Made by a program: the position numbers and the translations under genes
Shown here: piece by piece, positions 440-57,380 of the stretch
Numbering within the stretch: position 1 is the first letter of the stretch
Layout of the letters: each line of letters starts with the position of its first letter
Assembly (NCBI GenBank): GCA_013298695.1
Contig: JAAFIS010000006.1
Location: 1 to 64,000, forward strand
Length of the DNA: 64,000 nt
Direction: 5' to 3'
DNA from: Betaproteobacteria bacterium
Lineage (GTDB): Bacteria; Pseudomonadota; Gammaproteobacteria; Burkholderiales; Casimicrobiaceae
The notes under the pieces: generated by a model
The model's input: the letters and a program-made list of their open reading frames with translations, nothing else
What the model was told of the DNA's origin: nothing
The model's database searches: none

Positions 440-523
440 GCCCAATTTGATTGGGCGATACGCTCGCGAATTATACTTATCGAACTAAAGACAAAAAATA
501 CTGATCGCCCAGCGAGATCGGGC
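440..523. repeat. 67-bp-spaced palindrome pair, copy A
   Basis: Palindrome 1 (440-456) is a perfect GCCCAAT-TTG-ATTGGGC, extended by one more pair on each side. Palindrome 2 (507-523) is GCCCAGC-GAG-ATCGGGC. The centres at 448 and 515 lie 67 bp apart. The 50-bp spacer is AT-rich. Palindrome 2 ends 15 bp from the phaZ stop codon. Confidence 0.85.
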
Positions 524-525
524 GA
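490..525 (-). terminator. Possible phaZ terminator
   Basis: Read on the minus strand just past the phaZ stop, the 505-525 hairpin (arms TCGCCC/GGGCGA) is followed about 8 nt later by a T-rich run (TATTTTTTGTCTTT). The gap between stem and T-run is longer than ideal. This hairpin is also palindrome 2 of repeat pair A, so a terminator role is an inference. Confidence 0.4.
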
Positions 526-537
526 CTATAGATAAAG

Positions 538-1824
538 CTATTTCTTTGCCTTACGCTTAACGGCAGCTGTTTTCTTCACGCTTTTCGCGGTCTTCGCAAC
601 CTTAACCGCCTCATTTGCCGCGATGAATTCACGAATTTTGGGGTAAATGATGTTGCGCCAGCGGCTGCCTGAGAAGATGCCGTAGTGACCGCAGCCGGGC
701 ACCAGCAAATGTTCGCGTTTTCCGCTCGGCACGTTCGCGCAAAGTCCGTGCGCGGCATAGGTTTGTCCGGGGCATGAAATGTCGTCCATCTCGCCTTCGA
801 CCGTCATCAATGCCACATCGCGAATCGCTTTGGGATCAACGCGTTCGCCAGACACCTCCATGACGCCGCGAGGCAAATGAAATTGCTGGAACACACGATC
901 CACAGTTTCCAAGTAATACGCTGCGTCGAGATCAAGCACCGCGTTGTATTCGTTGTAGAACTTGCGATGCGTTTGCGCGTCCTCTTCGTCGCCTTTGAGT
1001 AAATCGAGAAAGAATTCCCAGTGCGATTTCGCGTGATTGCCGGGATTCATGGCGATGAATCCGTAGTGCTGCAAAAAGCCAGGATACACGCGACGTCCGA
1101 AGCCGGGGTATTTTGCGGGAACACGGGAAATCACGTGTTTTTCAAACCAATCTTTGGTGTGCTTGGTGGCGTACGTGTTCACGCTCGACGGACTCACCCG
1201 CGTATCAATCGGCCCACCCATCATCACCATGCTTTTCGGGCGCATTGGATCTTTGTTCGCCGCCATCAAACTCACCGCGCACATCACTGGCACGGTGGGC
1301 TGACACACGGAAATCACGTGCACGTTCGGTCCGAGTTTTTGCAAAAACTCGATTACGTAGTGCACATAATCATCGAGGTGAAAGAGCCCTTCGCTCATCG
1401 GCACCGTGCGCGCGTCGCGCCAATCGGTGATGAACACTTCATGATCTTGCACCAGCGATTTCACGGTGTCGCGCAACAGCGTTGAATGATGCCCGGAAAG
1501 CGGCGCTACGAGCAAAACACGCGGTTCATTTTTGCTGCCCACTTTCGCAAAGCGGCGCAGTTCGCAAAACGCTTTTTCTTGCACGACGGTTTCTTCAATC
1601 GCATGCGTATGGCCGTCGATCACCAACGTGTGAAGGCCGAATGGTTGCTTCGGATAATCCTGCGTGAGCCGCAGCGTCATCTCGCTTGACGCCGCCAACC
1701 AATCGCCTTGCGGCATATCGCGCCACGGATTGCCAGACGATTGCGCCCAGTTCATTCCCATTTGCGCAGCAAAGCGCATCGGCGCACCAAGTGATTTTTG
1801 AATTTCGTGGAAGGCGTAGAGCAT
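538..1824 (-). CDS. phaZ: Intracellular polyhydroxybutyrate depolymerase
   Basis: Hydrolyses native intracellular PHB granules to hydroxybutyrate units, so stored carbon can be reused. The 428-aa protein has the length and whole-protein character of the intracellular PhaZ family (alpha/beta hydrolase). No signal peptide is present, consistent with a granule-associated cytoplasmic enzyme. The nucleophile motif is a cysteine in VISVCQPTVP (about Cys174), as in the Ralstonia PhaZ1 group, not the serine of extracellular depolymerases. A probable catalytic Asp lies in VEGEMDD and His in GCGHYG near the C-terminus. The last ~25 residues are a Lys/Ala-rich tail (KRKAKK), plausible for granule or nucleic-acid association. 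No phaC or phasin gene is in the window. Confidence 0.93.
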   Translation of the reverse strand: MLYAFHEIQKSLGAPMRFAAQMGMNWAQSSGNPWRDMPQGDWLAASSEMTLRLTQDYPKQPFGLHTLVIDGHTHAIEETVVQEKAFCELRRFAKVGSKNEPRVLLVAPLSGHHSTLLRDTVKSLVQDHEVFITDWRDARTVPMSEGLFHLDDYVHYVIEFLQKLGPNVHVISVCQPTVPVMCAVSLMAANKDPMRPKSMVMMGGPIDTRVSPSSVNTYATKHTKDWFEKHVISRVPAKYPGFGRRVYPGFLQHYGFIAMNPGNHAKSHWEFFLDLLKGDEEDAQTHRKFYNEYNAVLDLDAAYYLETVDRVFQQFHLPRGVMEVSGERVDPKAIRDVALMTVEGEMDDISCPGQTYAAHGLCANVPSGKREHLLVPGCGHYGIFSGSRWRNIIYPKIREFIAANEAVKVAKTAKSVKKTAAVKRKAKK

Positions 1825-1945
1825 TTAAAACCGTTGTATGTTGAGGAGCGGGTATTGAAAGATTATGAGCAAGATGTGTACGAGAGCAGAATCAAGCGAA
1901 TTGCGAGGGGGTCGAGTTGGAGGTGGTCGCGGTCGTTTATGCTTT

Positions 1946-2053: not shown

Positions 2054-2602
2054 CTATCGGTCAACTTTTGTTGTTCTCAAGAATATCGCATCGTATTTAG
2101 CAGCGATTGGTTCTGCTTTACCGAAGCCCTCAAAAAATACTGCGCCTAGATTTGGCCCGTCCGTGAGCCCATACTGCACATAGTGCTGAAGCTCTCCATT
2201 CACGACGAATTCTGTTGACATGGTGTAAAGCTTGAACTCAGGCTTATCCAAGATCTTCACAAATTGCCGAACAACTTTGCCATTCTCAGATGTCGCAAAA
2301 CTCTCCCAATTTCGCTTCAGTAAAGCTTCATTGTTCGCAAGTAATGTATCGCGCTCGGTTGCAATCTTGCGAAACTGGAACAACGATAGCGTGATTCGTG
2401 TTTCATTGTCCGCTGTAGTTAGTACCGAACTTCCGTTTTCCTGCGACACGCTGAAACTGCCAGCAATAGGAAACTCGAACGGTCCTAGCCCAAGGGATTT
2501 CAACTCTTTCATGACCTTTCCTTTACTCTGGCCGAACGCATCCTGCGTGGGCAATGTCAACGCAAACAAAACTATGGTTAACGCGCAAGCGAAGCGTTTC
2601 AC
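2054..2602 (-). CDS. Exported protein of unknown function
   Basis: I do not recognise this 182-aa protein. The first ~24 residues form a clear Sec signal peptide (basic MKR, hydrophobic core, cleavage near AFGQ), so the mature protein should be periplasmic or secreted. The mature part is soluble, mixed alpha/beta in composition, with no cysteine and no obvious metal-binding motif. Its start codon overlaps the purF stop by 4 bp (ATGA), so it is probably co-transcribed as the last gene of the folC-cvpA-purF run. Such a link may be only positional, because its product has no visible connection to purine synthesis. Confidence 0.75.
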   Translation of the reverse strand: MKRFACALTIVLFALTLPTQDAFGQSKGKVMKELKSLGLGPFEFPIAGSFSVSQENGSSVLTTADNETRITLSLFQFRKIATERDTLLANNEALLKRNWESFATSENGKVVRQFVKILDKPEFKLYTMSTEFVVNGELQHYVQYGLTDGPNLGAVFFEGFGKAEPIAAKYDAIFLRTTKVDR

Positions 2603-4089
2603 TGATCCGCCCCCACCAAATCCCCGCGCGATTCATCTCTTGCCGTCGCGAGTCCTTGCAAAAACTGCGGCGTAATGTCACCCGTTACATAGCAGCCATC
2701 AAAACACGACGCATCGAAATCTTTGATCGCGGGATTGCCTGCTTTGATCGCTTTTTTCATGCCGTCAATCGTTTGATAGATCACGCGATCAGCGCCGATT
2801 TCAGTCGCGATTTGTTCGGTGGTTTTGCCGACTGCGATGAGCTCAGACGGCGTGGGCATGTCGATGCCGTACACGTTGGGATACATCACTGGCGGTGCGG
2901 CGCTGGCGAAGATCACCTTCTTCGCGCCCGCTTCACGCGCCATTTGTACGATCTCGCGGCTGGTCGTGCCGCGCACTATGGAATCATCAACGAGGAGCAC
3001 CGTTTTTCCCGCGAATTCGCTGGCGATTGGATTTAATTTTTGACGCACACTTTTGCGCCGCATCGCGTGACCGGGCATGATGAAGGTGCGGCCGACGTAG
3101 CGATTTTTCACGAAGCCTTCGCGATACGGACGACCGATTTTGACCGATAGCGACAATGCTGCGGGGCGCGATGAATCGGGAATCGGAATCACCACGTCAA
3201 TGGTTTTCCAATCCGGCATCGCTTGCACCACGTTGGCCAACTCTTCGCCCAAGCGCACCCGCGCGTCGTACACGGAAACGCCGTCGATCACCGAATCGGG
3301 CCGCGCGAGATAGACGAATTCGAAGATGCAGGGATTTAACTTCGGATTCACCGCGCATTGCTCCGCATGCACATGACCCGCGAAATCAATGAACAACGCT
3401 TCACCGGGCGCAACATCGCGCTCGAATTTGAAACCGAGTACGTCGAGCGTCACCGTTTCGCTCGCGACCAGATATTCAGGGCCTGCCATCGTTTCCGAAC
3501 GACCGTACACCATCGGACGAATGCCAAAGGGGTCGCGAAACGCGAGCATGCCGTAGCCCGCGATCATGGCGACCACCGCATAGGCGCCGCGACAGCGTTT
3601 ATGGACGCCGCGCACTGCGGTGAAAATCATTTGCGGCGTGAGCGCGCGCGTTCCTTGCGCGGCGCGCTCAAGTTCGAGCGCGAGTACGTTAAGCAACACT
3701 TCACTATCGCTATTGGTGTTGATGTGTCGTGCATCGATTTTGAAGAGCTCGCGTTTGAGCTCTTCGCCGTTGGTTAAGTTGCCGTTGTGAACGAGCGTGA
3801 TGCCGAAGGGTGAGTTGACGTAGAACGGCTGCGCTTCGTGCTCACTCACCGCACTGCCTGCGGTGGGATAGCGCACGTGGCCGATGCCTGCGGCACCGAG
3901 CAAATCGCGCATGTTTCGCGTTCGGAAAATGTCGCGCGCCATGCCTTTGCCTTTGTGCATGTGAAAGACTGCGCCGTCAGCAGTCATGATCCCTGCTGCG
4001 TCTTGCCCACGATGTTGTAAGGTCATCAAGCCGTCGTAAATCAATTGATTGACAGGGCCGTGACTAACAATTCCGATTACGCCACACAT
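2599..4089 (-). CDS. purF: Amidophosphoribosyltransferase
   Basis: Catalyses the first committed step of purine synthesis, transferring glutamine-derived ammonia to PRPP to give phosphoribosylamine. The protein starts MCGVIGI, so the nucleophilic Cys of the N-terminal glutaminase is exposed once Met is removed. There is no propeptide, as in the E. coli class. The QHRGQDAAG motif follows at about residue 26. The C-terminal phosphoribosyltransferase domain shows the PRPP-binding loop VLLVDDSIVRGTT. The 496-aa length is normal. The gene begins inside the 3' end of cvpA (13-bp overlap), the classic cvpA-purF arrangement, and is probably translationally coupled. Confidence 0.97.
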   Translation of the reverse strand: MCGVIGIVSHGPVNQLIYDGLMTLQHRGQDAAGIMTADGAVFHMHKGKGMARDIFRTRNMRDLLGAAGIGHVRYPTAGSAVSEHEAQPFYVNSPFGITLVHNGNLTNGEELKRELFKIDARHINTNSDSEVLLNVLALELERAAQGTRALTPQMIFTAVRGVHKRCRGAYAVVAMIAGYGMLAFRDPFGIRPMVYGRSETMAGPEYLVASETVTLDVLGFKFERDVAPGEALFIDFAGHVHAEQCAVNPKLNPCIFEFVYLARPDSVIDGVSVYDARVRLGEELANVVQAMPDWKTIDVVIPIPDSSRPAALSLSVKIGRPYREGFVKNRYVGRTFIMPGHAMRRKSVRQKLNPIASEFAGKTVLLVDDSIVRGTTSREIVQMAREAGAKKVIFASAAPPVMYPNVYGIDMPTPSELIAVGKTTEQIATEIGADRVIYQTIDGMKKAIKAGNPAIKDFDASCFDGCYVTGDITPQFLQGLATARDESRGDLVGADQ

Positions 4090-4637: not shown

Positions 4638-5070
4638 GGTTCGACTAGCTCACCACGAACGGGGAGAATGGGCTCTTCCCCAACGGGTTTAGCGAATCTG
4701 GCCACTCTTTTCGAGGTGATCCCGTGTCCTCGCCCCGGAGTAAACGTCATCCGCGCGTCCTGGGCTTGTCGACGGATCACTCCGTTCGTGGTGATCCCGC
4801 ATCTGCGCATCGGAGTAAAAGCCATCCGCTCGTCCTGAGCTTGTCGAAGGGTCACCTCGTTCGTGGTGATCCCGCATCTGCGCATCGGAGTAAACGTCAT
4901 CCGTGCATCCTGAGCTTGTCGAAGGATCACTCCGTTCGTGGTGATCCCGTGTCTTCGCACGGGAGTGAACGCTGCGCTCACACCCACTCCGTTCGTGGTG
5001 ATCCCGTGTCTTCGCACGGGAGTGAACGCTGCGCTCACACCCACTCCGTTCGTGGTGAGCTTGTCGAACC
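4638..5070. repeat. Composite repeat: terminal inverted repeats plus tandem units
   Basis: The ends (4638-4662 and 5046-5070) are 25-bp inverted repeats differing at one position, each containing CTCACCACGAACGG or its complement. Inside are three tandem 75-bp units (4710-4784, 4785-4859, 4860-4934) and two identical 57-bp units (4935-4991, 4992-5048). All begin TTCG(T/A)GGTGATCCCG. The 75-bp units carry the widespread CTGAGCTTGTCGAAGG-type core. Each 57-bp unit can fold as TCCCGTG-TCTTCG-CACGGGA. Unit lengths are multiples of 3, so several frames stay open across the block. I judge these frames non-coding. The element separates cvpA from the SPOR gene. Confidence 0.85.
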
Positions 5071-7098: not shown

Positions 7099-7158
7099 GG
7101 CTCGATGAAATTGCAGGTTTTATGTTGTTGCTGCAATGTGTCAGCTTCAATCTTGATC

Positions 7159-7242
7159 GCCCAATTGAATTGGGCGACGACTCGCGATAAATAAGTTTTC
7201 AACAAGTGAGCTTTTTTGCCTTGATACCCAACTATATTGGGC
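7159..7242. repeat. 67-bp-spaced palindrome pair, copy B
   Basis: Palindrome 1 (7159-7175) is perfect, GCCCAAT-TGA-ATTGGGC, extended by TC/GA on the outside. Palindrome 2 (7226-7242) is ACCCAAC-TAT-ATTGGGC. Centres 7167 and 7234 are 67 bp apart. The pair fills the gap between accD (stop 14 bp away) and folC. The spacer contains a run of six T. Confidence 0.9.
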
Positions 7243-7256
7243 GTTAAAGCACGAAG

Positions 7257-8102
7257 CTAAGATCGCATCGCGCTCAGTAATCGCGCAAGTGTCGCACGCA
7301 TCTCGCGGCGATCCACAATCATGTCAATCGCGCCTTTTTCCAGCAGAAATTCTGCGCGCTGAAATCCGTCTGGCAACTTCTCGCGCACCGTTTGCTCAAT
7401 CACGCGCGGCCCCGCAAAACCGACCAGCGCGCCAGGTTCGGCGATCACCACGTCGCCGACGAATGCGAAGCTCGCAGACACACCGCCCATCGTCGGATCG
7501 GTCAAGATACTGATGTAAGGCAATTTTTTCTCGGCAAGTTCCGCGAGTCGCGCATTGGTTTTCGCCATTTGCATGAGCGAAGCGAGCCCTTCTTGCATCC
7601 GCGCGCCGCCGCTCGCCGCGACCGACACGAATCCACACTTTGCTTTGATCGCTGCATCGACGCCGCGCGCGAAACGCTCGCCAACGACCGAGCCCATCGA
7701 GCCGCCCATGAATTCAAATTCGAAACACGCCACGACCGCGGGTACCTTCTCTATCGCGCCTTGCATCACAACGAGTGCATCGGTTTCGCCCGTCGCCTCG
7801 GTTGCTTGCTTCAAACGATCCGGATATTTTTTGCTGTCTTTGAATTTGAGTGAGTCGACGGGTGTGACTTCAGCGCCGATTTCTTTACGACCGCTCTCAT
7901 CGAGCAAACCGTTCAACCGAGTGCGTGCGCCGATCCGCATGTGATAGCTGCATTTCATGCACACATGCTGATTTTTCTCGACGTCTTCGGTGTAGAGCAC
8001 CGAATCGCAATTCGGGCATTTAAGCCAAAGCCCCTCAGGAACGCCGCGTTTGCCGACTGTATCGCCTTTGACGGCGGGAATGATTTTTTCTAACCAAGAC
8101 AT
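7257..8102 (-). CDS. accD: Acetyl-CoA carboxylase carboxyltransferase subunit beta
   Basis: Beta subunit of the carboxyltransferase half of acetyl-CoA carboxylase. With AccA it moves CO2 from biotin-BCCP to acetyl-CoA, giving malonyl-CoA for fatty acid synthesis. The N-terminal four-cysteine zinc ribbon is intact (Cys29, Cys32, Cys48, Cys51, in CPNC and CMKC). The crotonase-fold core follows with SGGARMQEG and the conserved [12 protein letters not shown] segment. The 281-aa length is slightly shorter at the C-terminus than many homologues. In related bacteria accD directly follows trpA, but here three accessory genes (8.3-12.7 kb) lie between them. Confidence 0.97.
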
Positions 8103-15186: not shown

Positions 15187-15308
15187 AACTATCCTCTTCA
15201 TCGTCCGTTTCTAATTCAACGCGATACGTCGTTGCGACTTCTCGCCGTGCATTCGCACTGTCTTCGTCGTCGCGCCTAGTCTCGCGCCGAATTAGAAACG
15301 GAAGAAAA

Positions 15309-15393
15309 GCCCATATTTTGTTGGGCGAATCAATAAAAAATGATGGGTAGTGAGACGGAACGTTTTCGGCGTTATCGCCCAATAAAATTGGGC
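15309..15393. repeat. 67-bp-spaced palindrome pair, copy C
   Basis: Palindrome 1 (15309-15326) reads GCCCATATTTTGTTGGGC. Palindrome 2 (15377-15393) is a perfect GCCCAAT-AAA-ATTGGGC. Centres 15318 and 15385 are 67 bp apart. Palindrome 2 overlaps the last codons of trpF (encoding PNFIGR), so it is partly coding. The pair otherwise fills the trpF-trpB gap. Confidence 0.88.
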
Positions 15394-16028
15394 ACTGCAG
15401 CGCAAAACTCGCGGATTAGCTTTGAGTCTTTCACACCGCGCGACGATTCGACGCCGCTGCTCACATCCACCGCAAACGGGTGAACGGCGTTAACCGCGTC
15501 GGCCACATTTGCAGCAGTCAAGCCACCAGACAAAACGAGCGCTGGCGCGGACGCGCTTGGCTTGTTTGTTGTGTTGTTGATGAGCTGCCACGAAACCAAA
15601 TTCCAATCGAATGTTTTTCCGCTGCCGCCGTAGCCTGCGCTCGGCGTGTCAAGCAAAAGCGCCGCAGCGCTCGAATACTGTTGCTCAGATTTTAATCGAT
15701 CAAACGACGCGTCCACCGCAATCGCTTTCATATACGGACGCCCGAACTGTTCGCAAAATTCGCGCGGCTCGTCGCCGTGAAATTGCAGCAGATCGATGCG
15801 GGCCGTTTCGAGCACGGCATTTACTTGCTCTTTCGTTGGGTTCACGACCAGCGCGACACAGGAAACAAACGCGGGCACGCGTTTGGTGAGCGTTGCCAGC
15901 AACGACAAATCTATCGCACGAACGCTCTGCGGCCAGAGCACGAAACCAATCGCATCCGCGCCCGCTTCGACGGCGACGTCGACATGTTCAAGCGTTTTAA
16001 GGCCGCAAATTTTTATTCGAGTGCGCAT
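15372..16028 (-). CDS. trpF: Phosphoribosylanthranilate isomerase
   Basis: Isomerises N-(5'-phosphoribosyl)anthranilate to the carboxyphenylamino-deoxyribulose phosphate in tryptophan synthesis. This is a TIM-barrel protein of 218 aa with the usual KICGLKT start region (catalytic Cys about residue 8), GFVLWPQSVR, the ALVLSGGLTAANV strand and the catalytic Asp in VDVSSGVESSRGVKD. The order truA-trpF-trpB-trpA is characteristic of betaproteobacteria. The C-terminal six residues are encoded within palindrome 2 of repeat pair C. trpC, trpD and trpE are not in the window. Confidence 0.96.
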   Translation of the reverse strand: MRTRIKICGLKTLEHVDVAVEAGADAIGFVLWPQSVRAIDLSLLATLTKRVPAFVSCVALVVNPTKEQVNAVLETARIDLLQFHGDEPREFCEQFGRPYMKAIAVDASFDRLKSEQQYSSAAALLLDTPSAGYGGSGKTFDWNLVSWQLINNTTNKPSASAPALVLSGGLTAANVADAVNAVHPFAVDVSSGVESSRGVKDSKLIREFCAAVPNFIGR

Positions 16029-19859: not shown

Positions 19860-20924
19860 CTAAAGTGCGCCCACAATGGCGTCGCCCATCTCGATAGTTC
19901 CGATAATTGGCTCGCCGAATTGCGCGATATCGCCGGTGCGTTTGCCAGACGCGAGCACTTTGCGCACTGCGCCTTCAATGCGATCTGCGAGATCGTTTCG
20001 ATTGAACGTGTAGCGCATCATCATCGCGAGCGAGAGGATCGTTGCAATCGGATTGGCTTTGTTTTGTCCGGCGATGTCAGGCGCTGAACCGTGAATCGGT
20101 TCATACAAACCTTTTTTGTTGGCATCGAGCGAAGCCGAAGGCAGCATTCCAATCGAGCCCGCGAGCATCGAGGCTTCGTCAGAGAGGATATCGCCGAAGA
20201 TATTGCCCGTCACGATCACATCGAACTGCTTCGGTGCTCGCACCAGCTGCATCGCGGCGTTGTCAACATACATATGTGAGAGCTGCACTTCGGGATACAA
20301 CTTGCCCATTTCAGTGACGACTTCGCGCCACAAGATCGAGGTGTCGAGCACGTTGGCTTTGTCAACGCTGCATAATTTTTTATTGCGCTTCATCGCGGTT
20401 TCGAAGCCAACGCGTGCGATGCGCTCCACTTCGCTACGTGCGTAATGCATCGTGTCGAAGCCTTCGTCTTCGCCCGCTGCGTTAGTACGACGACCGCGCG
20501 GCTGACCGAAATAAATGTCACCGGTTAGTTCGCGAATGATCATGATGTCGAGACCGGCGACGACTTCCGGTTTCAGCGAAGATGACGCTGCGAGTTCGGG
20601 ATACAGAATCGCGGGACGCAAGTTAGCGAAAAGCGACAAATCTTTCCGAATCGCAAGCAATCCTTGCTCGGGGCGCACGGCACGCGGCAGCGTGTCGTAT
20701 TTCGGCCCGCCGACGCAGCCAAGCAGAATCGCATCAGCTTCGCGCGCTTGTTGTTGCGTTTCTGGCGGATACGGATGGCCATGCTTGTCGTACGCTGCGC
20801 CTCCTAGCACACCAAACGAAAGCGCAATTTCACCGGGCGAAGATTGTATTTTTTCTAATACTCGAACAGCTTGAGAAACGATCTCTGAGCCGATACCGTC
20901 GCCGGGAAGAATAAGTATTTTCAT
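19860..20924 (-). CDS. leuB: 3-Isopropylmalate dehydrogenase
   Basis: NAD-dependent oxidative decarboxylation of 3-isopropylmalate in leucine synthesis. The 354-aa protein has the family start [14 protein letters not shown], the [13 protein letters not shown] substrate loop, the DxxSMLAGS-type metal-binding segment ([21 protein letters not shown]) and the [18 protein letters not shown] nucleotide-binding region. It lies downstream of leuC, the entericidin-like gene and leuD. A 170-bp gap with a REP-like doublet separates it from leuD. The usual downstream neighbour asd is missing, and fimV follows directly. Confidence 0.97.
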
Positions 20925-23495: not shown

Positions 23496-26024
23496 TTAAT
23501 TGACGACCGTCGCAGGCGTCTCTCGCACCCGCGCGGCCCTCAACACCGCCGCCCTCGTATCCGGCGGCAGTAAAAACGATGCATCATTTGCGCGCATCAC
23601 CAACGCCTGCTCGTAATGCACGCTCTGCGCGGAATCAAGTTTCACGAGATCAGCATTTAGGAGTGCATCAAACGCACTCTTAAACTGCGATTTGTCGCTA
23701 AATTCCGGGGCGTTGAACACGTGCGTCATCGCAAGATGTTGCGCGGCTTGTTGTGAAAGCGATTCAATAGCCTCGCGCGAGCGGGTGCCAGCGGGTTCGC
23801 GCACGACGATCGCGAGCATCAGCGCGTGGCGCGTGAGCGTAGGGCGCATGATCGCGGCGAGGGTTTCGAGTTGCAGCGCGCCGTCGGTGCCTGCTGCCGA
23901 GGCGGAAATCACGCTTGCGTCGCCATGCTCAGCTTGCAGCCAATTGTCGTCGAGCATCGCGGCGAGCGTTGCGTCAAAGGGCGCGAATACGTCGCTTTCA
24001 GTCGACCAAGGCGGCAAAAAAAGTTCGAACGAGAGCAGCGCGTAGAGTTCGCGCGAGAGTGCCGCGAGCTTGCCGCGCCCGAGCGTGCCGTGTTGAACGA
24101 TCAAGCAGGCGATGAGCCCAGGCAGCGCAAAACAGTGCAACACGTTGTTGCGGAAATACGTAAGCGATACGGCTTCGACTTCTTTCGCGATTGCCACGTT
24201 TCCGAACGCGTGAGATCGTTTTTCGATGTAACCTAACTTTTCGCAATATTCAATCGCTTGCCCAGCGTTATTGGGCGTTAAATACAATTCTTGAATAATT
24301 TGCGTGCGTGGCACCAATCGTTTCAGGTGCTCAATCGTTGTTGCCAGCTGCGTGACGTCCGCAGCGTGCCGCGGCGTGGCGAGCAGCGCGGTGGAGACGA
24401 GCGACACTGGATTCACATGCGCCGCGCCGTTGATCCGCTCCGCGATGCGACGAGACAATTCGGTAAGCGTATTGCGGCGAAGCGATTTGTCTTCGAGCCA
24501 GCTCGCGAAAGTTGGGCTGCCCACTTCATCGAGCAGCTCATGCAATAGGATCGGACGCGCAAAAGTGACGCCGACGCGACCGTATTTTTGCTTGCGCATA
24601 TCGAGCGCCGCCATCGCGAGCCCCCAGAGCGATTCTTTTTTCTTCGCCGCACCGGAAAGCTCTTGCGTATAGCTGCCGCCTTCAATCAATTTTTCATAGC
24701 CAACATACACCGGAACAAAGGCGAGCGGTCGATCATGTTCACGCAAAAAACTCTGCACCGTCATCGAAATTAAGCCCGCTTTCGGCGGCAACATACGCCC
24801 CGTGCGCGAGCGACCACCTTCGACAAAGTACTCCACCGGAAAGCCGCGCTTCAACACTTCATGTACGTACGCGCTGAACACCTCCTGATACAGCTCATCA
24901 TCTTTGAACGAACGCCGCAAAAAGAATGCGCCGCCCCCGCGCAAAATCCGCCCGACAATCGGCAAATTCAAGTTGGCGCCCGCCGCAATATGCGGAATCG
25001 TGAGCCCCGCTTCTCGCACAACGTATGACAGCAACAAGTAATCGATGTGGCTTCGATGACACGGCACGTAAACGATCGTGTGATCTTTAGCGAGCGTATG
25101 CAATTGATCCGCGCCGCGCACTTCAACGCCGTCGTAAATCCGATTCCACACGCTTTTCAAGATTCGCGCAAACGTGCGCACTATCGGATATGAGTAGTCC
25201 GCAGCGATTTCCCGCACGATTTTTTCAGCGCGCGCTTCCACTTTGTATTCGCTCGTTTTCTTCGCGTTGACTTCAGCAGAGATCGCGTTCTTCACGCGCG
25301 GCTCGCGCAGAATCGCCTCCATCAAAATCCGGCGATGCGAGAGATCCGGGCCAATAGCAGCTTCGCGTTCGTTTCTGAAACGTGTGCGCAAGATGCGGGC
25401 AATCCGCCGCTCCACGCGATCGTTGGTGAGCCCTTCACTGTGCGCCGCAATGAGCGTTGCCTTCAAGGAAATGGCTTCGCCAAACTTAACGATCACATCG
25501 TTACGGAAAAAAATAATCGCGAGCAACTTGCGTAGCCGCGAACGACCGCCCCAGCCTTCCGCAGCCCAGATGCGCAGCCAGCGCATGCGCGTCGCCGAAT
25601 TGGTAGCGCTTTCTTCGCGCTCCGGAGTGCGCCCCCAGAACACACTCACCGGCACCAAGTGCACATCATCGAGTGTGTTTGCATTCACTCGATCAACGAT
25701 TCGACTCAAGCGCTCAGGCATTGCGCGCAGTTTGCCGCCGGGTCGCAGAAACATCGAATCGCGCAAGTAGAAATAGGCAATTCGATCCGTCGCCTCCATG
25801 CCCGGAATAGGCGCATGCGACAGCGGCAGCGCGAGCCGCCGCGTGAGCGAATCGAGCATCGCTCGGTCAGTAATTGAGGGCCGCGCAAGCACGTAGCACG
25901 TCGGTTTCGTCGCATCAATGGCAAGCGGCTGCGGAAACACCTGCGCGCGCACCCAACCATCAAACGCTTTGCGCACAAGCGTCGAAAACCACCGACTTGG
26001 CGAGAACAACACGGATTCGCTCAT
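23496..26024 (-). CDS. plsB: Glycerol-3-phosphate 1-O-acyltransferase
   Basis: Membrane-associated enzyme that acylates position 1 of sn-glycerol 3-phosphate, the first step of phospholipid synthesis. The acyltransferase blocks are present in order: HRSHIDYLLLSY (HX4D catalytic), GGGAFFLRRSF, YFVEGGRSRTGRMLPPKAG and FVPVYVGYEKLIEG. The 842-aa length is slightly longer than E. coli PlsB (about 807). The C-terminal region is poorly conserved, ending ARVRETPATVVN. The stop overlaps the miaA start region (ATGA, 4 bp), with miaA next upstream, so they are probably co-transcribed. A single GCCCAGC-GTT-ATTGGGC palindrome lies inside at 24260-24276. plsY at 50.5 kb belongs to the alternative acyl-phosphate route. 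Confidence 0.95.
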   Translation of the reverse strand: MSESVLFSPSRWFSTLVRKAFDGWVRAQVFPQPLAIDATKPTCYVLARPSITDRAMLDSLTRRLALPLSHAPIPGMEATDRIAYFYLRDSMFLRPGGKLRAMPERLSRIVDRVNANTLDDVHLVPVSVFWGRTPEREESATNSATRMRWLRIWAAEGWGGRSRLRKLLAIIFFRNDVIVKFGEAISLKATLIAAHSEGLTNDRVERRIARILRTRFRNEREAAIGPDLSHRRILMEAILREPRVKNAISAEVNAKKTSEYKVEARAEKIVREIAADYSYPIVRTFARILKSVWNRIYDGVEVRGADQLHTLAKDHTIVYVPCHRSHIDYLLLSYVVREAGLTIPHIAAGANLNLPIVGRILRGGGAFFLRRSFKDDELYQEVFSAYVHEVLKRGFPVEYFVEGGRSRTGRMLPPKAGLISMTVQSFLREHDRPLAFVPVYVGYEKLIEGGSYTQELSGAAKKKESLWGLAMAALDMRKQKYGRVGVTFARPILLHELLDEVGSPTFASWLEDKSLRRNTLTELSRRIAERINGAAHVNPVSLVSTALLATPRHAADVTQLATTIEHLKRLVPRTQIIQELYLTPNNAGQAIEYCEKLGYIEKRSHAFGNVAIAKEVEAVSLTYFRNNVLHCFALPGLIACLIVQHGTLGRGKLAALSRELYALLSFELFLPPWSTESDVFAPFDATLAAMLDDNWLQAEHGDASVISASAAGTDGALQLETLAAIMRPTLTRHALMLAIVVREPAGTRSREAIESLSQQAAQHLAMTHVFNAPEFSDKSQFKSAFDALLNADLVKLDSAQSVHYEQALVMRANDASFLLPPDTRAAVLRAARVRETPATVVN
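24260..24276. repeat. Single copy of the GCCCAAT palindrome in plsB
   Basis: GCCCAGC-GTT-ATTGGGC lies within plsB codons. No partner is recognisable 67 bp to either side (centres 24201 and 24335 checked). It is either an orphan half of the pair element or chance. Confidence 0.5.
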
Positions 26025-26968
26025 GTGTTTAATTTCGCAGCGGAAATCGCGCGTTCAATCAACCGTGATGCGTATTCGGTTGCGTCAGGCGCATCACAAC
26101 AAACGATATCGCCTGGCAAACTTTTCAGCCACGTGAGTTGCCGCTTTGCGAGCTGACGCGTCGCAAATAGTGCGCGATCAAACATTTCTTTTTCTGGCGC
26201 GCGACCTTCAAGCACATCGATCACTTGACGATATCCGACGCAGCGCATCGCAGGCATTTCAGCTTTGAGTTCATAGCGCATTCTGAGCGATTTCACTTCA
26301 TCGACAAAACCGCCGTCAAACATGTCGCGCAACCGCTGCTCACATCGCGCATGCAGCCAGGCGCGATCCTGCGGCAGCCACCGAATTACAAAGTGAACAA
26401 CGTTCTTTAACGCCCAATTTCTTTGGGATTGCATGCTCGAAATTGGTTTTCCCGTTTGTAGCCAAACTTCATAGGCACGCCCAATGCGCTGGGCATCTGT
26501 TGCTGGAAGCCGGGATGCCGTAGCCGGATCGACTCGCGCGAGCTCCGCGTGCAAAGCTTCGATGCCATCACGACGAATTCGCGCATTCACGTCCTCACGA
26601 ATCGCGTCATCCGTCGGCGGCACATCGCTCATACCAACCAGCAACGCGTTCGCGTAGAGCATCGTCCCGCCGACCAACAGCGGCATGCGCCCGCGCGATT
26701 GAATATCGCGAATCGCCAGCATCGCGTCGATTAAAAATTGCGCAACGGAATAGCGCTCGGTCGGCGCGATCAAGTCGATTAAATGATGCGGCACGCGTGC
26801 GCGTTCGGAGGCGCTCGGCTTCGCAGTGCCGATGTTCATGTCGCGATACACGAGCGCGGAATCGATGCTCACGATCTCGGCGTTGAAGCGTTCGGCGAGC
26901 GCGAGCGCAGCGCTGCTTTTGCCGCTGGCAGTGGGGCCGATCAACAAAACCACCGGAGAAGACGTCAT
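26021..26968 (-). CDS. miaA: tRNA dimethylallyltransferase
   Basis: Transfers the dimethylallyl group from DMAPP to N6 of A37 in tRNAs reading UNN codons. The P-loop LIGPTASGKSSAAL is at residues ~9-22, followed by DSALVYRDMNIGTAKPS, the R..PHHLIDL segment, LLVGGTMLY and DAQRIGRAYEV. The 315-aa length is normal. The order plsB-miaA, then a repeat and mutL, keeps the common mutL-miaA pairing. Residues about 158-186 are encoded by a stretch that also forms a 67-bp-spaced palindrome pair (26412-26495). The protein sequence there looks ordinary for the family. Confidence 0.96.
   Translation of the reverse strand: MTSSPVVLLIGPTASGKSSAALALAERFNAEIVSIDSALVYRDMNIGTAKPSASERARVPHHLIDLIAPTERYSVAQFLIDAMLAIRDIQSRGRMPLLVGGTMLYANALLVGMSDVPPTDDAIREDVNARIRRDGIEALHAELARVDPATASRLPATDAQRIGRAYEVWLQTGKPISSMQSQRNWALKNVVHFVIRWLPQDRAWLHARCEQRLRDMFDGGFVDEVKSLRMRYELKAEMPAMRCVGYRQVIDVLEGRAPEKEMFDRALFATRQLAKRQLTWLKSLPGDIVCCDAPDATEYASRLIERAISAAKLNT
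26412..26495. repeat. 67-bp-spaced palindrome pair inside miaA (copy J)
   Basis: Palindrome 1 (26412-26428) is GCCCAAT-TTC-TTTGGGA and palindrome 2 begins GCCCAAT-GCG-CTGGGC (26479-26494). Centres 26420 and 26487 are 67 bp apart, with a 50-bp spacer. The second palindrome encodes the conserved DAQRIGRA region of MiaA, so the site was not created by an insertion. Confidence 0.65.
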
Positions 26969-31121: not shown

Positions 31122-31156
31122 TTTCGGCGCTGCGCCACTTAGGTTTTCACACTAAA

Positions 31157-31240
31157 GCCCGATTTACTTGGTCTCAAGGCTCGGTTTAGCAATTTATTGT
31201 TATTAGCAGAAAATTAAGTCTTTGCCCGATAAGATTGGGC
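31157..31240. repeat. 67-bp-spaced palindrome pair, copy D
   Basis: Palindrome 1 (31157-31173) is GCCCGAT-TTA-CTTGGTC and palindrome 2 (31224-31240) is GCCCGAT-AAG-ATTGGGC. Centres 31165 and 31232 are 67 bp apart. It occupies the gap between the convergent S9 peptidase and dxs genes, ending 17 bp from the dxs stop. The spacer is strongly AT-rich. Confidence 0.82.
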
Positions 31241-31257
31241 GTTTCGCTGAAAACTTG

Positions 31258-34350: not shown

Positions 34351-34437
34351 GATCGGGCTAAATGAAGAGAGCGCTTGATTTTACGGGGCTTAGGCGTGGG
34401 TGGACGATTTGTAACATCGCGATTGACACGCCCGAGC

Positions 34438-36350: not shown

Positions 36351-36370
36351 GCTCAGCATATTGCACAGCC

Positions 36371-36454
36371 GCCCATATTAATTGGGCGGCGATGTTGTTT
36401 TAACTAGTTCGCGAAAACAATAAGTTTATTTCTCTATGCCCAATTGAATTGGGC
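36371..36454. repeat. 67-bp-spaced palindrome pair, copy E
   Basis: Palindrome 1 (36371-36387) is GCCCATA-TTA-ATTGGGC, with its stem extended by GCC/GGC to 36368-36390. Palindrome 2 (36438-36454) is a perfect GCCCAAT-TGA-ATTGGGC. Centres 36379 and 36446 are 67 bp apart. It lies between the convergent Rieske and efflux genes. Confidence 0.9.
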
Positions 36455-36518
36455 GTTAGCTTGTAATACTGAGCACTTCATTTCGGAATCACGCACCAAC
36501 GCTACAGTCGCTTTACCT

Positions 36519-41160: not shown

Positions 41161-41163
41161 GGA

Positions 41164-42713: not shown

Positions 42714-45700
42714 ATGACCGCCACGACTGAATCCTTGGCGCCTCGCCAGCCCACACCCAAGACACAGGCCCGCAGCCGCGTTCGTGGTTGGCGTCTATTT
42801 TTTCTGGTCATCGCCGCGATTTGTGTTTTCGGGCTCCTCACGCTGTCGAGCCTCGCGTTGATCGTTCCTTACGTGATCAAACATTCAGCGCCAACTTGGG
42901 TCAAGGAGAAGACGGGGCGCACATTAACCGTCGCTAACGCTTCGTTTAATCCTTTCACGCTGCGCCTGAACGTTGAGAAATTTGCACTGAATGATCGCTC
43001 GCAGGTCGGCGCGGGCCGCACGCTTGCATCGTTGGATGCGCTCGACATCGAAGGCAGTTGGTCGAGTATTACAAACGCTGCCTGGACCGTTAACGAAATC
43101 AAGCTCACGCAACCTACGATCAACGCTCATATCGCTGCCGACGGTTCGCTGGATTGGACGCGTTTTCTCGATGCGTTTCCGAAGCCCGAAAAAGAGCCAC
43201 CTGCAAGTGATTCCATTCCGCGCATCCTTCTTAATAACGTAAGCATCGCGGGCGGCGCACTGCGCCTGACCGACGAACGTGTTGGCGTGAGCGCGCCCGC
43301 GCAGCGGCGTATCGAGCTCTCTCCGCTGACCTTCAAACTCGACAAACTCTCTACGCTGCCTCGCGATCGCGGCGAATATGCACTTGACGCATTGCTCAAC
43401 GACCAAACTCGTGTGCAGTGGAAAGGACGCGTTGGCGGTAATCCGATTGAGAGTTCGGGCGATTTGACGATCTCTAATCTGCCGCTCGCTAAGTTTTCAA
43501 CACTTGCCAACTTACCGCTACCGGTGGAGCTCGCTGGAACGGCAACGCTCAGCGCAAATTACACCGCTGCAGCGGGCACCGATTTCGTAGCGGCCGGTAT
43601 CGGCGGCGGCACGTTGCAAATCAACGGTTTGAGCGTCACCCAAAACGGTGACGCGGCCGCTTTGAAATCACTCACCGTTAATCCCGTGAGCTTGTCGTAC
43701 GCAAGGACGCAGGCCGATGCGAAAAGCGCGCCGCAAACGATCTTCGCGATCGAGCCGTTAAAGCTCGCGATCGACGAACTCAGCGTGAAAGCTCGAGGCG
43801 ACAAGTCATCACTAATTTCTGTAAAGCAACTATCTACGCCTTCGCCCGTCGTAATTGGGCGATCTGACCAAAAAATAGTAGTTCCGTTAATAGTAGTTAA
43901 CGAGCTTTTAGCCCAATTAAATAGGTCACGAAATGGCGAAGTTGTTTTACCATTTTCGCAGTTCAACGCAAACACCACTACGCCCCCTGCACCTGCTGCA
44001 GCGCGCGATGCGACTGCGAAATCGCCCAGTAGCAGCGAGCTGCCATGGCAATTCTCGATTGGCGAACTTAGCACCGAACGCGCCAAGATTAGCTTCAGCG
44101 ACGCGAGTTTCACGACGCCGCAATTCACATCGGCAACGGCAGATCTGTCACTCGGCGCAACTGCGGTGATCGGCGCTACACCGCGCTTTGAACTCGTCAC
44201 CACGAAATCGAAAATTAGCGAATTTAGTATCCGCGACGAAACGGCAAAAGCACCCTGGCTCAGCGTGAAAGAAATTCGTGCGCAGCCGTTTTCATTCACG
44301 AACAACGCTGCCACTGTTCAAATTCCAAAGATTGAAATTGCCGGCGTTGATCTCGCTGCAACGCTTTCCAACGACGGCGTGGATCTCGCAAAAAAGCTAA
44401 GCCCCGCGATCAACGCGGCAGGCGCGGCGAACGCGACTAGCAAAAAGGGACAAACCGCAAATGTGTCGCTGGCGGGTGTTTTACTGACTGGCGGGCGCGT
44501 CGTGTTAACAGACGCAACGCTTGCCGCGCCCCTGACGCACACTTTGCAAGACGTTCGCATTGCCTTCGATCGATATGCGATCGACGGTGCTTCGCCGCTC
44601 GCGGCAAACGTTAGTGCGAATCTAGCGAGCGGCGGTGCGTTGAAGGGCTCGCTCAGCTATGACGTGCGGAAAGGTGGCGGTGAAGCGCGCCTTTCGCTTG
44701 AGCAACTCGCGCTCGCATCGTTTTCGCCTTACATCAACCGCAACACGAAGCTCAAAATCGATAAAGGCAGCGCGGCGTTAAATGGCGCGCTCAAGATTGC
44801 GGCGAGCAATAGTGCAGAACAATCAATTCGATTCGACGGTAGCGCTGCGCTGCGCGACGTGAACTTGGTCGACGAAACGAGCAACACGTCGTTCGCACAA
44901 TGGACTGAACTATCGACGACCGATGCAAAGCTCAGCATGGGCGCGAAAGGCACGCAAATTAATCTCGCCGATTTGTTGCTTGATCAGCCACGCGGAAAAA
45001 TCATCATCGGCGAGGATCGCGTCGTGAACTTAACGCAGATCGGGAAAGTGAAGGCAAGCGGAGAACCGGTACAGCCGGTTGAGCGGTCGGCACAAGCCGC
45101 GCCAAAACCGGCCGAAGAATCGAAGAGCATTCGCGCCGTTGTTTCTCGAATTCAAGTGACCGGCGGCGACATTGAATTTGCCGATCTGTCCCTGCGCCCT
45201 CAGTTCGGAACCCGCGTGTCCGACCTTTCAGGCCTGATCGTTGGTCTCTCCACCCAATCGGCTTCGCGCGCAGAAGTGTCGATGGAAGGCAAAGTGGATC
45301 AATTTGGTTTAGCGCGGCTCACGGGAACGATCGCCCCTTTCGGTGCGGCTGAATTTACCGATCTTAAAGCCGTGTTTCGCAATTTAGAGTTGGCGAATCT
45401 CACCCCATACTCGGGCAAATTTGCGGGTCGGAAGATCGAATCCGGCAAGCTCTCGCTCGATCTTGATTACAAGATCGAGGCGCGAAAATTGAAAGGTGAG
45501 AATCAAGTCATCATCGACAACATCAAACTGGGTGAACGTGTCGATTCTCCGGATGCAACGAACTTGCCGCTCGATTTAGCGATCGCCGTGATGCGCGATA
45601 GCAATGGCGTGATTGATCTTGGCATTCCGATACAAGGCTCGCTTGACGATCCGCAATTTAGCTACGGCTCGCTGATCTGGAAAGCAATTGTTAACGTGCT

Positions 45701-46397: not shown

Positions 46398-46408
46398 AAA
46401 GGCCGTTC

Positions 46409-46711: not shown

Positions 46712-46744
46712 CTGCGCCGCGAGACGCTAACGCCGATGGCGCTG

Positions 46745-47122: not shown

Positions 47123-47169
47123 TGCGCGTTCTTTTAAGGCGCCAACCAAGTTACAACTTTTTTGTAAAC

Positions 47170-47252
47170 CCGCTGTTTTGTTGGGCGATTATCCGTAAGA
47201 ATTATCTATACAACGTCCCAATTAAATCCACTATAGCCCAATAAATCAGGCT
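47170..47252. repeat. Palindrome pair, degenerate copy F
   Basis: Only the inner arms are well kept: GTTGGGC at 47180-47186 and GCCCAAT at 47236-47242. The centres are 66 bp apart instead of 67. The element lies between the VOC gene start and the MBL-fold hydrolase stop (20 bp away). An extra GTCCCAATT occurs in the spacer at about 47215. Confidence 0.6.
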
Positions 47253-47271
47253 TTTTTACGGCATTTTTTGT

Positions 47272-48390: not shown

Positions 48391-48456
48391 TGACGAAACA
48401 TAGCATCGAATCATTGCGATTCAATGCGGGACTGCGGTCACCTTCGGGCGATTTTG

Positions 48457-49424: not shown

Positions 49425-50531
49425 ATGAAAGACTTTTCAACCACCCGCTCGGGATTAGTGCTCGGCATCGAGTCATCCTGCGATGAGACCGGTATCGCCC
49501 TGTTTAATGGGCGAATAGGGGTAATAGTTGCGGAATCCCTTCACTCACAAATATTACTCCACGCCCCATTCGGTGGGGTTGTGCCCGAATTAGCCGGTCG
49601 GGATCACATTAAATATGGCCTGCGTTTGATCGATTCGACGCTCAAAAGCGCTGGAATCTCGGGCAATGAAATCGAAGCGGTCGCTTACACCCAAGGCCCC
49701 GGCCTTGCTGGCGCGCTGCTCGTGGGCGCACAGCTCGCAGCAGCGCTCGCCTACGCGTGGGGAAAGCCAACGATTCCCGTGCATCACATGGAGGGGCATT
49801 TGCTATCGCCCATGCTCGCTGATCCTGCGCCTGCGTTTCCATTCATTGCACTGCTGGTGTCAGGCGGCCATACGCAGCTCATGCGCGTTGACGGCGTTGG
49901 GCGTTATGGGTTGCTCGGCGACACGATCGATGACGCCGCAGGCGAGGCCTTCGATAAATCCGCGAAATTGATTGGGCTTCCGTATCCGGGCGGCGCGTTG
50001 CTGTCGCGCCTCGCGGCAAACGGCGAGGAAACATCGTTTGCAATTCCTCGCCCCCTATTGCACTCCGGCGATTTGAATTTCAGCTTCGCGGGGCTCAAAA
50101 CTGCAGTGGCCAACGAAGTGCGTCATCTCACCGGCACCGCACTTCCCGCACGCGGCGCGATTTCAGCGCCGCAACCCATTCTGCCCGACGATCATCCGCG
50201 GCGCGCCGACCTGGCTGCAAGTATTCAAGCGGCGATTGTTGATTGCCTCGTCGCGAAATCAGTCGCCGCGCTCAAGCGAACGGGGTTGCAGCGGATCGTC
50301 GTCGCCGGCGGTGTGGGTGCCAATCAAAAGTTGCGCGAATCGCTCAATCGCGCCGCAGAAAAAGTCGGTGCGACGGTGTTTTATCCACCTGTCGCGTTGT
50401 GCACTGACAACGGCGCAATGATCGCGCACGTGGGCGCGCTGCGTTTTGCAGAAGCTAAGCTCGATTACTCAGTCAACGTCAAGCCGCGTTGGGATCTAGC
50501 GGAGTTACGCGCGCCTACGCCCTGCGCTTGA
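49425..50531 (+). CDS. tsaD: tRNA N6-threonylcarbamoyladenosine transferase
   Basis: Catalytic subunit (with TsaB/TsaE) that transfers the threonylcarbamoyl group to A37 of ANN-decoding tRNAs. It shows the ASKHA-fold motifs [44 protein letters not shown] (metal His pair), [11 protein letters not shown] and [10 protein letters not shown]. The 368-aa length is normal. No clear Shine-Dalgarno precedes ATG 49425; a GTG at 49458 would also keep the conserved start, so the first ~11 residues are uncertain. The 3' end overlaps the convergent plsY gene by 17 bp. Codons 24-52 carry a weak palindrome pair (copy K) and use AT-rich codons. Confidence 0.96.
49496..49579. repeat. Possible palindrome pair inside tsaD (copy K)
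   Basis: GCCC-TGTTTAAT-GGGC (49497-49512) and CCCCA-TTCGG-TGGGG (49564-49578) have centres about 67 bp apart with a 50-bp AT-rich spacer. Both depart from the GCCCAAT consensus and encode conserved TsaD residues, so this could be chance. Confidence 0.35.
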
Positions 50532-52355: not shown

Positions 52356-52497
52356 CGATTTCCTATATGTCCGCGATGCTGTATGAAGCTCGCGGACCGT
52401 AAATCACGCGACCTAGAGCGCCACGAAAGCGCCATCACAAAAACATTCTAGGGAGGCAGTCTGTCAGATCGATAGAATCACATACTTTTGCGCTACC

Positions 52498-52581
52498 GCC
52501 GCATTTAAAAAAGGCGATACGACGATTTTCGCGTTACTAGACAACGGCTGAATTAATCTGTATCGCCCATTACATTCGGGA
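52498..52581. repeat. Palindrome pair, degenerate copy H
   Basis: Palindrome 2 (52565-52581) reads GCCCATT-ACA-TTCGGGA. Exactly 67 bp to the left the sequence GCC-N12-GGC (52498-52515) is a decayed version. It lies between the TerC gene start and the ugpE stop (23 bp away). The call rests largely on spacing and position. Confidence 0.4.
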
Positions 52582-52603
52582 AGAACCGTCGATTGCTGCT
52601 GCC

Positions 52604-56052: not shown

Positions 56053-56199
56053 GGTCTCTCCTGAGATTGTGTTTTTGTGCATGTGCAGCAAGTTTTGCTA
56101 TGAGCAATACCCGCTATCGTAAATCGGAAATGTGACACTTTTTAGAAAAACGCGCAAACGCGGGTTTCCCTATTCGCCTGCGCTTGATATAGTCGTCGC

Positions 56200-57276
56200 A
56201 TGGCACAAGTTGAATTCAAACAAGTCAAAAAATCATACGGTAATGTCGATGTCATTCATGGCGTCGATCTGGCCATCGCCGACGGCGAGTTTGTGGTGAT
56301 TGTCGGTCCCTCGGGCTGCGGCAAATCAACGCTTTTGCGCATGGTCGCGGGGCTAGAGGCGATCACCAGCGGCGAAATCTGGATCGACGGCAAAGTCGTG
56401 AATACGCTGGAGCCGAAGGATCGCGACATCGCGATGGTGTTCCAAAACTACGCCCTCTACCCGCACATGAACGTGCGTGAAAACATGAGCTACGGCCTGC
56501 GCATTCGCAAGATGGCACAAAGCGAAATTGACGCGCGCATCGCAAAGGCAGCCGAAATTCTGGAGCTTTCGCATTTGCTTGACCGTAAACCGAAGCAGTT
56601 ATCCGGTGGCCAGCGCCAGCGCGTGGCGATGGGGCGCGCCATTGTGCGCAATCCGAAAGTGTTTTTATTTGATGAGCCGCTTTCAAACTTGGACGCGAAA
56701 TTACGCGTTGAAATGCGGCTTGAGATTCAAAAGTTGCACCAGGAATTGCGAGTGACGAGTCTCTACGTCACTCACGATCAGATTGAAGCGATGACGCTCT
56801 CTGATCGCATGCTCGTCATGAATTCTGGCGTGATCGAGCAAGTCGGCACGCCGAAAGACGTCTACGAGCGACCAGCGTCGCTCTTTGTTGCGAATTTCAT
56901 CGGCACACCTGCGATGAACCAGCTCTGGGGCGAGCGCGCCGGACAGTCGCTAAAACTCACCGAGCATGGCGACATGTTTCACGTTGGCGAGTTTCCCAAC
57001 GTGGTTGACAATAATCGACGCGTCGCACTGGGCATTCGCCCCGAGCATTTGCAGGTTGTGCCGACCGCGCAGGCGCGCTTTACGATCGCAGTACAAATGG
57101 TGGAGTGGGTCGGCGCGGATGCTTACGCTTACGGGCAGTTCGGCAACTACCGCATCATTTGCCGCCTGCCGAGTGAGGGCGTTGGCGCAAACGCGCGTGT
57201 CGGCGATAAGCTGCCGCTGTCGTTCGATCCGGCTCGTGTGCATTGGTTTAACGCAGATACCGGTAAAAGAATGTAG
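56200..57276 (+). CDS. ugpC: sn-Glycerol-3-phosphate ABC transporter ATPase UgpC
   Basis: ATP-binding subunit that powers the UgpA/UgpE permease. It has Walker [10 protein letters not shown] (about residue 36), the Q-loop in [11 protein letters not shown], the signature LSGGQRQR, Walker [15 protein letters not shown] and the H-loop VTHDQ. The C-terminal ~120 residues form the MalK/UgpC-type regulatory OB-fold domain ([10 protein letters not shown]). The 358-aa length matches UgpC. Unlike E. coli, where ugpC follows ugpE in one operon, it is here on the opposite strand next to ugpB. No ugpQ gene follows. Repeat pair G lies after its stop. Confidence 0.95.
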
Positions 57277-57296
57277 TACTGACTATACCCCTTAAA

Positions 57297-57380
57297 TGCT
57301 TATTTTGCTGGGCGTAGCGTTACATTTTAGCTTTTTTCAATAATTACATTAATCGAGCTTGTAACCCAATATAATTGGGC
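57297..57380. repeat. 67-bp-spaced palindrome pair, copy G
   Basis: Palindrome 1 keeps only its right (inner) arm GCTGGGC (57307-57313). Palindrome 2 (57364-57380) is ACCCAAT-ATA-ATTGGGC. Centres 57305 and 57372 are 67 bp apart, with an AT-rich 50-bp spacer. It lies between ugpC and the glycosyltransferase gene, ending 26 bp before the latter's start codon. Confidence 0.78.

Follow-up and report, generated by a model that had tools for sequence, protein, structure and literature searches.

Introduction

Bacterial chromosome folding is known mainly through proteins of weak sequence preference or through few dedicated sites. The sites matS (read by MatP) and parS (read by ParB) are single short palindromes in duplex DNA that occur at scattered chromosomal places and are recognized by dimers, and the sites of Lrp/AsnC octamers are palindromes about three helical turns apart on wrapped DNA. 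RIP, or BIME-1 (BIME, bacterial interspersed mosaic element), consists of two repetitive extragenic palindromic (REP) sequences around an IHF site. Here we describe an element of about 120 bp, including a pair of palindromes 67 bp apart, that recurs along the window, meaning the whole stretch of 64,000 bases that was analyzed (bases 1–64000 of contig JAAFIS010000006.1, designated C19), and elsewhere in its host genome (a Betaproteobacteria bacterium of the Casimicrobiaceae, designated G000; 4.08 Mb in 22 contigs). We see about an even chance that it is a double-stranded docking site for a dimeric, DNA-wrapping, chromosome-organizing protein other than DNA gyrase.

Two further systems bear on this element. 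REP sequences and BIMEs are intergenic inverted palindrome pairs, present in hundreds of species-specific copies and defined by a GTAG/GTGG-type head beside the palindrome (PMC2817692). The motif of Escherichia coli gyrase spans 130 bp, is symmetric about a 4-bp cut and has flanks phased in GC with a period of 10.75 bp; sites of the enzyme are more frequent behind operons with high transcription (PMC6379681). Phasing of 10–11 bp is given for other gyrases (PMC12324340). A preliminary description of the window had known of no named element with this form, and the literature agrees as far as it was searched: queries by sequence strings and phrases, which left subscription journals mostly uncovered, returned no such element among the listed titles and abstract starts. 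The exact double palindrome had no match in a genome contig collection from which the window's own or very near genomes are possibly excluded.

Results

Palindromes are paired at a fixed distance

The pattern GCCCAATN3ATTGGGC, with up to three mismatches, matches the window 17 times, against 3.58 times (standard deviation [sd] 1.70) in shuffled sequence, and none of 100 shuffles reached 17. Across the whole genome, 405 sites with at most two mismatches compare with 3 for the reversed pattern. Distances were analyzed in an 800-kb sample of contig C1, which is 20% of G000 and comes to 864 kb together with the window. Sites with up to three mismatches formed 27 pairs 17–300 bp apart in this sample, of which 19 were spaced by 67 bp and three by 66 bp, with five other distances represented by one pair each; three Markov controls gave no distance peak. 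When weaker partners were allowed, at distances of 65–69 bp only, 53 pairs were found in C1 and the window (44 at 67 bp, seven at 66, one at 65 and one at 69). The fixed 67-bp distance proposed in the preliminary description is thereby borne out. Its ten window pairs were all recovered where it had placed them, some as poor copies (e.g., the left palindrome of 57305/57372), and the two worn pairs and two pairs within genes among them are backed by the weight matrix described below.

The pairs belong to a five-part symmetric element

The 44 pairs at 67 bp, selected by their palindromes alone, were aligned, and the alignment resolves a single element, ~120 bp long and symmetric about a dyad. TCGA sits on the dyad itself, flanked by palindromes at −33.5 and +33.5 and, farther out, by CAGCTT at −56 and AAGCTG at +56. 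The TCGA is conserved at 74–76% per base, within a central consensus in G000 of TTTATCGATAAA, and T/A tracts are found at distances of 3.5 and about 13 bp from the dyad. A/T and G/C alternate in phase along the element, with a period of about 10 bp, and conservation fades past about 61–68 bp from the dyad. The earlier statement that the spacers do not resemble one another is therefore wrong, since the 44 pairs share the TCGA and the T/A tracts, with CAGCTT/AAGCTG outside the pair. Its suggestion of a two-site DNA target stands insofar as the conserved geometry fits a protein target in duplex DNA, but the two sites are only part of a five-part element.

A symmetric weight matrix was refined on the 864 kb, at a cutoff passed by about 5 positions in 2 Mb of Markov control sequence, and gave 175 raw matches in C1 and 21 in the window. 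Counting those with a score of at least 20, after removal of overlapping side matches, left 150 elements (136 in C1 and 14 in the window), or one per ~5.8 kb. Extrapolated from this fifth of G000, a genome would hold roughly 700. The matrix added four weaker window elements to the pairs listed earlier (Table 1).

Table 1. Elements in the window. Positions are those of the window; scores are from the symmetric weight matrix.
Feature	Position	Dyad	Score	Context
Element	423..540	481.5	65.4 (R1 54.9 bits)	At stop of polyhydroxyalkanoate (PHA) depolymerase gene (538-1824, - strand)
Element	7142..7259	7200.5	68.0	Between accD and folC
Palindromic arm example, perfect copy	7159..7175			Pattern match
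Element	15293..15410	15351.5	50.7	Between trpF and trpB, overlaps trpF 3' end
Weaker element, new here	20805..20922	20863.5	30.8	Inside open reading frame (ORF) 19860-20924
Weaker element, new here	24176..24293	24234.5	32.2	Inside glycerol-3-phosphate acyltransferase gene 23496-26024
Element	26395..26512	26453.5	33.4	Inside IPP transferase (miaA-like) gene 26021-26968, Pfam IPPT
Element	31140..31257	31198.5	66.1	Between convergent 29070-31121 (peptidase-like) and dxs
Element	36354..36471	36412.5	65.2	Between convergent genes
Element	43827..43944	43885.5	65.8	Inside DUF748 gene 42714-46397
Worn element	47153..47270	47211.5	35.2	Behind gene 47272-48414 (- strand)
Weaker element, new here	49479..49596	49537.5	33.6	Between divergent called genes 48457-48909 and 49581-50531
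Worn element	52481..52598	52539.5	38.4	Behind permease gene 52604-53461 (- strand)
Element	57280..57397	57338.5	68.6	Behind ABC transporter ATPase gene 56200-57276
Weakest counted element, new here	60768..60885	60826.5	27.6	Overlaps start of gene 60803-61684

Elements lie mostly behind genes

By gene calls that are crude, 101 of the 136 C1 elements are intergenic and 35 lie inside genes, a share that drops with score (12 of 98 at score 40). The distance from the dyad to the flanking stop codon has a median of 83.5 bp (10th percentile 58 bp, 25th percentile 66 bp), which means that many elements start directly at the stop codon. Intervals of 100–250 bp in C1 are occupied in 17 of 26 convergent, 22 of 122 tandem and 1 of 28 divergent cases, and the 34 divergent intervals of at least 250 bp hold 13 elements. 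A simple consensus for sigma-70-like promoters had no match in positions 30000–48000 of the window, where shuffles give 7.7. Elsewhere in G000, a strong element (C18:241075-241194) starts a few bases after the gyrA stop codon.

Some stretches lack elements. The 55 kb of C1:574400-629300 hold none and contain very long ORFs (5.5 and 4.6 kb); three of the four ORFs tested there, including the 4.6-kb one, had no Pfam match. Nine large ORFs from three element-free stretches gave matches to PhoD, a TonB receptor, leucine-rich repeats (LRR), an M61 peptidase and PilY1, and four of the nine had no Pfam match in a search that did not cover phage families.

Place is kept and spelling changes across the genus

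The nearest named relatives by accD are metagenome genomes labeled Betaproteobacteria or Burkholderiales, at 96, 88 and 87% identity. The accD region was examined in 15 genus mates; a further one, G003, yielded no accD. In 11 of them the folC-accD interval exceeds 140 bp between the aligned parts, and all 11 carry the element, with scores of 12.5–54.9 by the G000 matrix (lowest in G012). G008 and G016 have ~60–66 bp between the two genes and no element, and in G010 and G014 folC is not beside accD on the stretch examined. The trpB-trpF element is found at the same place in G002 and G009.

Matrices were also refitted to six species on stretches of their genomes. They identified 48 elements in G005, 35 in G015, 42 in G013 and 15 each in G012 and G007, where controls predict 0.4–1.7, as well as 66 in G010 (2.1 predicted by control). 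For G013 the first refinement (42 matches) was used; the second drifted to codon periodicity (304 matches) and was discarded. The dyad TCGA is kept in all six species, in a GTCGAC-like context in G005, G015, G013, G012 and G007 and a TTCGAA-like one in G010. CAGCTT-like flanks are kept in all six as well, visible just as cTTT in G013 and placed 1 bp closer to the dyad in G015. The arms are spelled approximately GCCCAATTnAATTGGGC in G000, GCCtTATnAAATAaGGC in G010, GCnCATTnnnAATGGGC in G005 and CGACnGCCnGGCGGTCG in G007 and G012, and their local dyad is fixed at 33.5 bp in the five species tested. Between species, then, the arms change as palindromes while the center and the ±33.5 geometry stay constant.

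Searches recovered the element from one genus alone

A sequence model built on 36 G000 elements, run on both strands, had matches in 14 of 60 genomes including G000, all from this genus; species with another spelling, G003 and G012 among them, escape this model. The CAGCTT-TCGA-AAGCTG pattern outnumbers its control in most of the 17 genomes of the genus, by as much as 216 vs 2. It is weak in G002 (7 vs 2), G004 (11 vs 5) and G015 (8 vs 2), occurs twice in G008 (vs 0) and is absent from G016, and it shows no excess in the 47 genomes that represent six further genera of the family (0–2 vs 0–3). G008 and G016 are the smallest of the 17 genomes. A GTCGAC-centered form, sought in a sample of 349 genomes of the order (six of them from the genus), was found 114 times in G005 and at most five times elsewhere, like the control. 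In other Burkholderiales, 52 loci from outside the genus were tested at the interval 3' of accD: the GC/AT profile gave no excess (2 of 52 at p<0.05), and letter models of six species gave 1–8 of 52 at p<0.05 (highest for G015 with 8 and G007 with 7). The element thus appears confined to this genus in these searches, which would miss a version with another spelling elsewhere. The bare palindrome somewhat exceeds its control in some other families of the order (34 vs 5 in G039, 45 vs 11 in G051, 36 vs 5 in G056); the element model has no matches in these three genomes despite that excess.

Discussion

A putative docking site for a chromosome-organizing protein

Five phased duplex palindromes, A/T tracts at ~10-bp intervals and the lack of clear pairing covariation inside the palindromes suggest that duplex DNA is read by a symmetric protein and bent, and the placement mostly behind genes with few close neighbors points to chromosome organization. 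In the arrangement we propose, a sequence-specific dimer would read the central palindrome together with both arms, and the intervening and outlying DNA would be bent or wrapped around the particle, with A/T tracts facing inward every ~10 bp. Such particles, a few kb from one another, would mostly sit behind genes and would rarely occupy short promoter intervals. They may organize the nucleoid, perhaps by anchoring loops or by serving as supercoil-handling stations. We attach somewhat less than an even chance to a broader picture, in which hundreds of dyad-symmetric 120-bp sites would form a lattice of nucleosome-like positions at orthologous places a few kb apart, read by a fast-evolving sequence-specific protein, such that the sites of a genome are respelled together with their geometry fixed.

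For intergenic elements, the expected spacing came from random draws of candidate sites between genes, with weights for interval class and length. Over 0–575 kb of C1, a range picked after the gaps were seen, the 113 elements have a mean distance of 5.1 kb with a coefficient of variation (CV) of 0.55, and for the 84 intergenic ones the CV is 0.63, where 0.91 is expected and none of 20000 draws was as even. The 29 elements within genes in this range lie a median of 3.8 kb from the nearest intergenic element, compared with 2.0 kb for random coding positions, a separation that 3 of 5000 draws attained. Short-range exclusion remains when all 800 kb are considered: distances below 3 kb account for 14% against 29% expected (1 of 20000 draws).

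Several observations weigh against a docking site as proposed. Beyond the crude gene calls and the choice of range, the CV for the whole 800 kb is 0.95 against 0.93 by chance, i.e., not lower, because of stretches of up to 55 kb without elements. In other species, with 6–45 distances each, 14–25% are below 2 kb in G005, G010, G007 and G015 (0 of 6 in G012). The 10-bp wave accounts for just 21–32% of profile variance in the six species, and over periods of 5–65 bp the strongest is 7.5 bp in G005 and G015. Finally, there is weak positive covariation across the dyad in G000 (201 vs 175; 17 of 1000 draws as high) and within the arms of G005 (z 2.09, p 0.018) and G007 (z 2.33, p 0.014); the corresponding z values are 1.09 in G015, 0.55 in G013 and −0.54 in G012. 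This weak covariation leaves some room for a structural role, and uneven site strength could also cause it.

DNA gyrase as a possible reader

The leading named candidate is gyrase: the elements would be built-in strong sites of this enzyme, which would make its 4-bp staggered cut at the dyad TCGA, wrap the phased arms on the GyrA C-terminal domains and remove positive supercoils behind genes. The evidence is mixed, and we regard this as less likely than not. The element, conserved to about ±61 bp, resembles the gyrase motif and strong gyrase sites such as that of phage Mu in a length of ~130 bp, dyad symmetry and location downstream of genes, and roughly also in its GC phasing of ~10 bp (PMC6379681). 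With the half-site GC/AT profile of G000, the right arm of the Mu site ranks 15 of 73292 when placed 1–2 bp off the annotated cut (at +1), and profiles of three shorter stretches rank it 6, 54 and 4 of ~73400; at the exact annotated center, however, the same four profiles give ranks of just 822–2166 (half site 1457), and the left arm scores poorly. The full symmetric test at the exact cut ranks the site 411 of 36574 with GC/AT letters and 1324 with the full matrix, and its central 36 bp alone rank 15189 of 36574. Profiles of other species give best ranks for the right arm of 233 (G005), 54 (G015) and 55 (G013), but only 2978 and 5666 with those of G012 and G007.

On pSC101 the top matches are scattered, with nothing clear. 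Four of the six species profiles score high and in phase at positions 4717-4737 of this plasmid (L180); the stretch may lie near the gyrase-binding par locus.

The spelling of the arms differs among species whose GyrA is 90–95% identical to that of G000 (10 full-length matches; GyrA is fragmented in four further genomes, with fragments of 87 and 74% identity in G013), and the arm center is not AT-rich in G012 and G007. Gyrase is universal, whereas the element has been seen in this genus alone. Its letter-specific palindromic arms have local dyads of their own, which a single wrapping domain should not need, and its species-specific spelling and sparse close neighbors are likewise unlike the gyrase motif. 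The period, 9.75–10.25 bp as best fit in six species, is closer to 10.0 than to the 10.75 bp of the E. coli motif, with 10–11 bp for other gyrases (PMC6379681, PMC12324340). Because of the exact-center ranks and central 36 bp of Mu, the G012 and G007 profiles, the pSC101 result and the variation in arm spelling relative to GyrA identity, a dedicated nucleoid protein other than gyrase is somewhat more likely to be the putative reader.

Repeats, hairpins and other known sites

It is improbable that the element is a REP/BIME-like or miniature inverted-repeat transposable element (MITE)-like repeat spread by a transposase, whether a REP-associated tyrosine transposase (RAYT) or another. Palindrome pairs, intergenic 3' placement and species-specific spelling do fit such a repeat, and Y1_Tnp genes are present in the 15 element-rich genomes of the genus and in neither of the two element-poor ones (G008 and G016). 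Beyond the genus, however, 28 of the 47 other family genomes carry them too, although the element pattern is not in excess there. The one Y1_Tnp gene of G000 (L065:1384-2052; ORF of 173 aa), which we take to be RAYT-like, is not flanked by the element, in this single case tested: a different, GGTGGGCAC-type inverted palindrome pair with about five occurrences in 800 kb lies just upstream, and its 3.4-kb locus has no scored element, the nearest beginning at C1 98350 and 105623. The ORF at 2317-3348 of the same locus is presumably IS110-like. The 44-pair alignment contains no conserved GTAG/GTGG-type head beside the palindrome, and the duplex-symmetric center and flanks, the few close neighbors and the position kept between species over large divergence are further differences from REP/BIME (PMC2817692). 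The preliminary description had argued against a copied mobile repeat and for a protein target of conserved geometry, and this is supported: close neighbors are rare, the orthologous position is kept while the sequence is not, and the dyad symmetry includes the 4-bp palindromes AGCT and TCGA, which cannot be hairpins. A MITE or other copied repeat is disfavored, as copies share phased positions alone and not their interior, and the orthologous place is kept.

Slightly less probable still are paired RNA hairpins or bidirectional terminators at 3' ends, a version of which (two hairpins in RNA or single-stranded DNA) had been offered in the preliminary description. The elements are placed behind genes and each palindrome could form a 7-bp hairpin; the central TCGA and outer AGCT, 4 bp each, are symmetric too but too short for hairpins, and 35 of the 136 C1 elements are within genes. 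Compensatory changes within the arms in G000 are not clearly above chance (left arm 55 vs 47.8, sd 6, a level reached in 138 of 1000 draws; right arm 65 vs 57.3, sd 7, reached in 136 of 1000), and the five relatives also show little covariation. Because there is so little pairing covariation inside a genome, the letters of duplex DNA seem to be what is read. Within positions 30000–48000 of the window (18 kb), one of 32 terminator predictions coincides with an arm, shuffles give 30 predictions, and terminators (a GC stem followed by a T run) are not enriched in this stretch; Rfam had no window matches at gathering thresholds.

RIP/BIME-1 shares the plan of two palindromes around a conserved center, but the center here is TCGA, and the IHF consensus lies between the palindromes in 0 of 139 elements (background 1 in 3000). 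Like REP/RAYT repeats, mobile elements, hairpin RNA and terminators, such IHF-type BIMEs fit worse than a docking site.

Among dimer-read sites, matS and parS resemble the element as palindromic duplex sites scattered on the chromosome, the reader being putative here; they are single short palindromes, whereas the element has five phased parts over ~120 bp and a far higher copy number. Lrp/AsnC sites, with palindromes about three turns apart on DNA that is wrapped, as it may be in the element, differ from its spacings of 33.5 and 22.5 bp and its hundreds of sites, many behind genes, with no Lrp consensus or protein search made.

Implications

Complex sites spaced along the chromosome throughout a genus would provide a sequence-defined handle on loop or supercoil domains. 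Single sites could be deleted, moved or respelled, with contacts and supercoiling as the readout. If gyrase reads the elements, the genome would be writing its gyrase stations into its sequence, and if the reader is not gyrase, it would represent a new class of chromosome-organizing protein. In either case, the coordinated respelling of many sites among related species is an evolutionary puzzle in itself.

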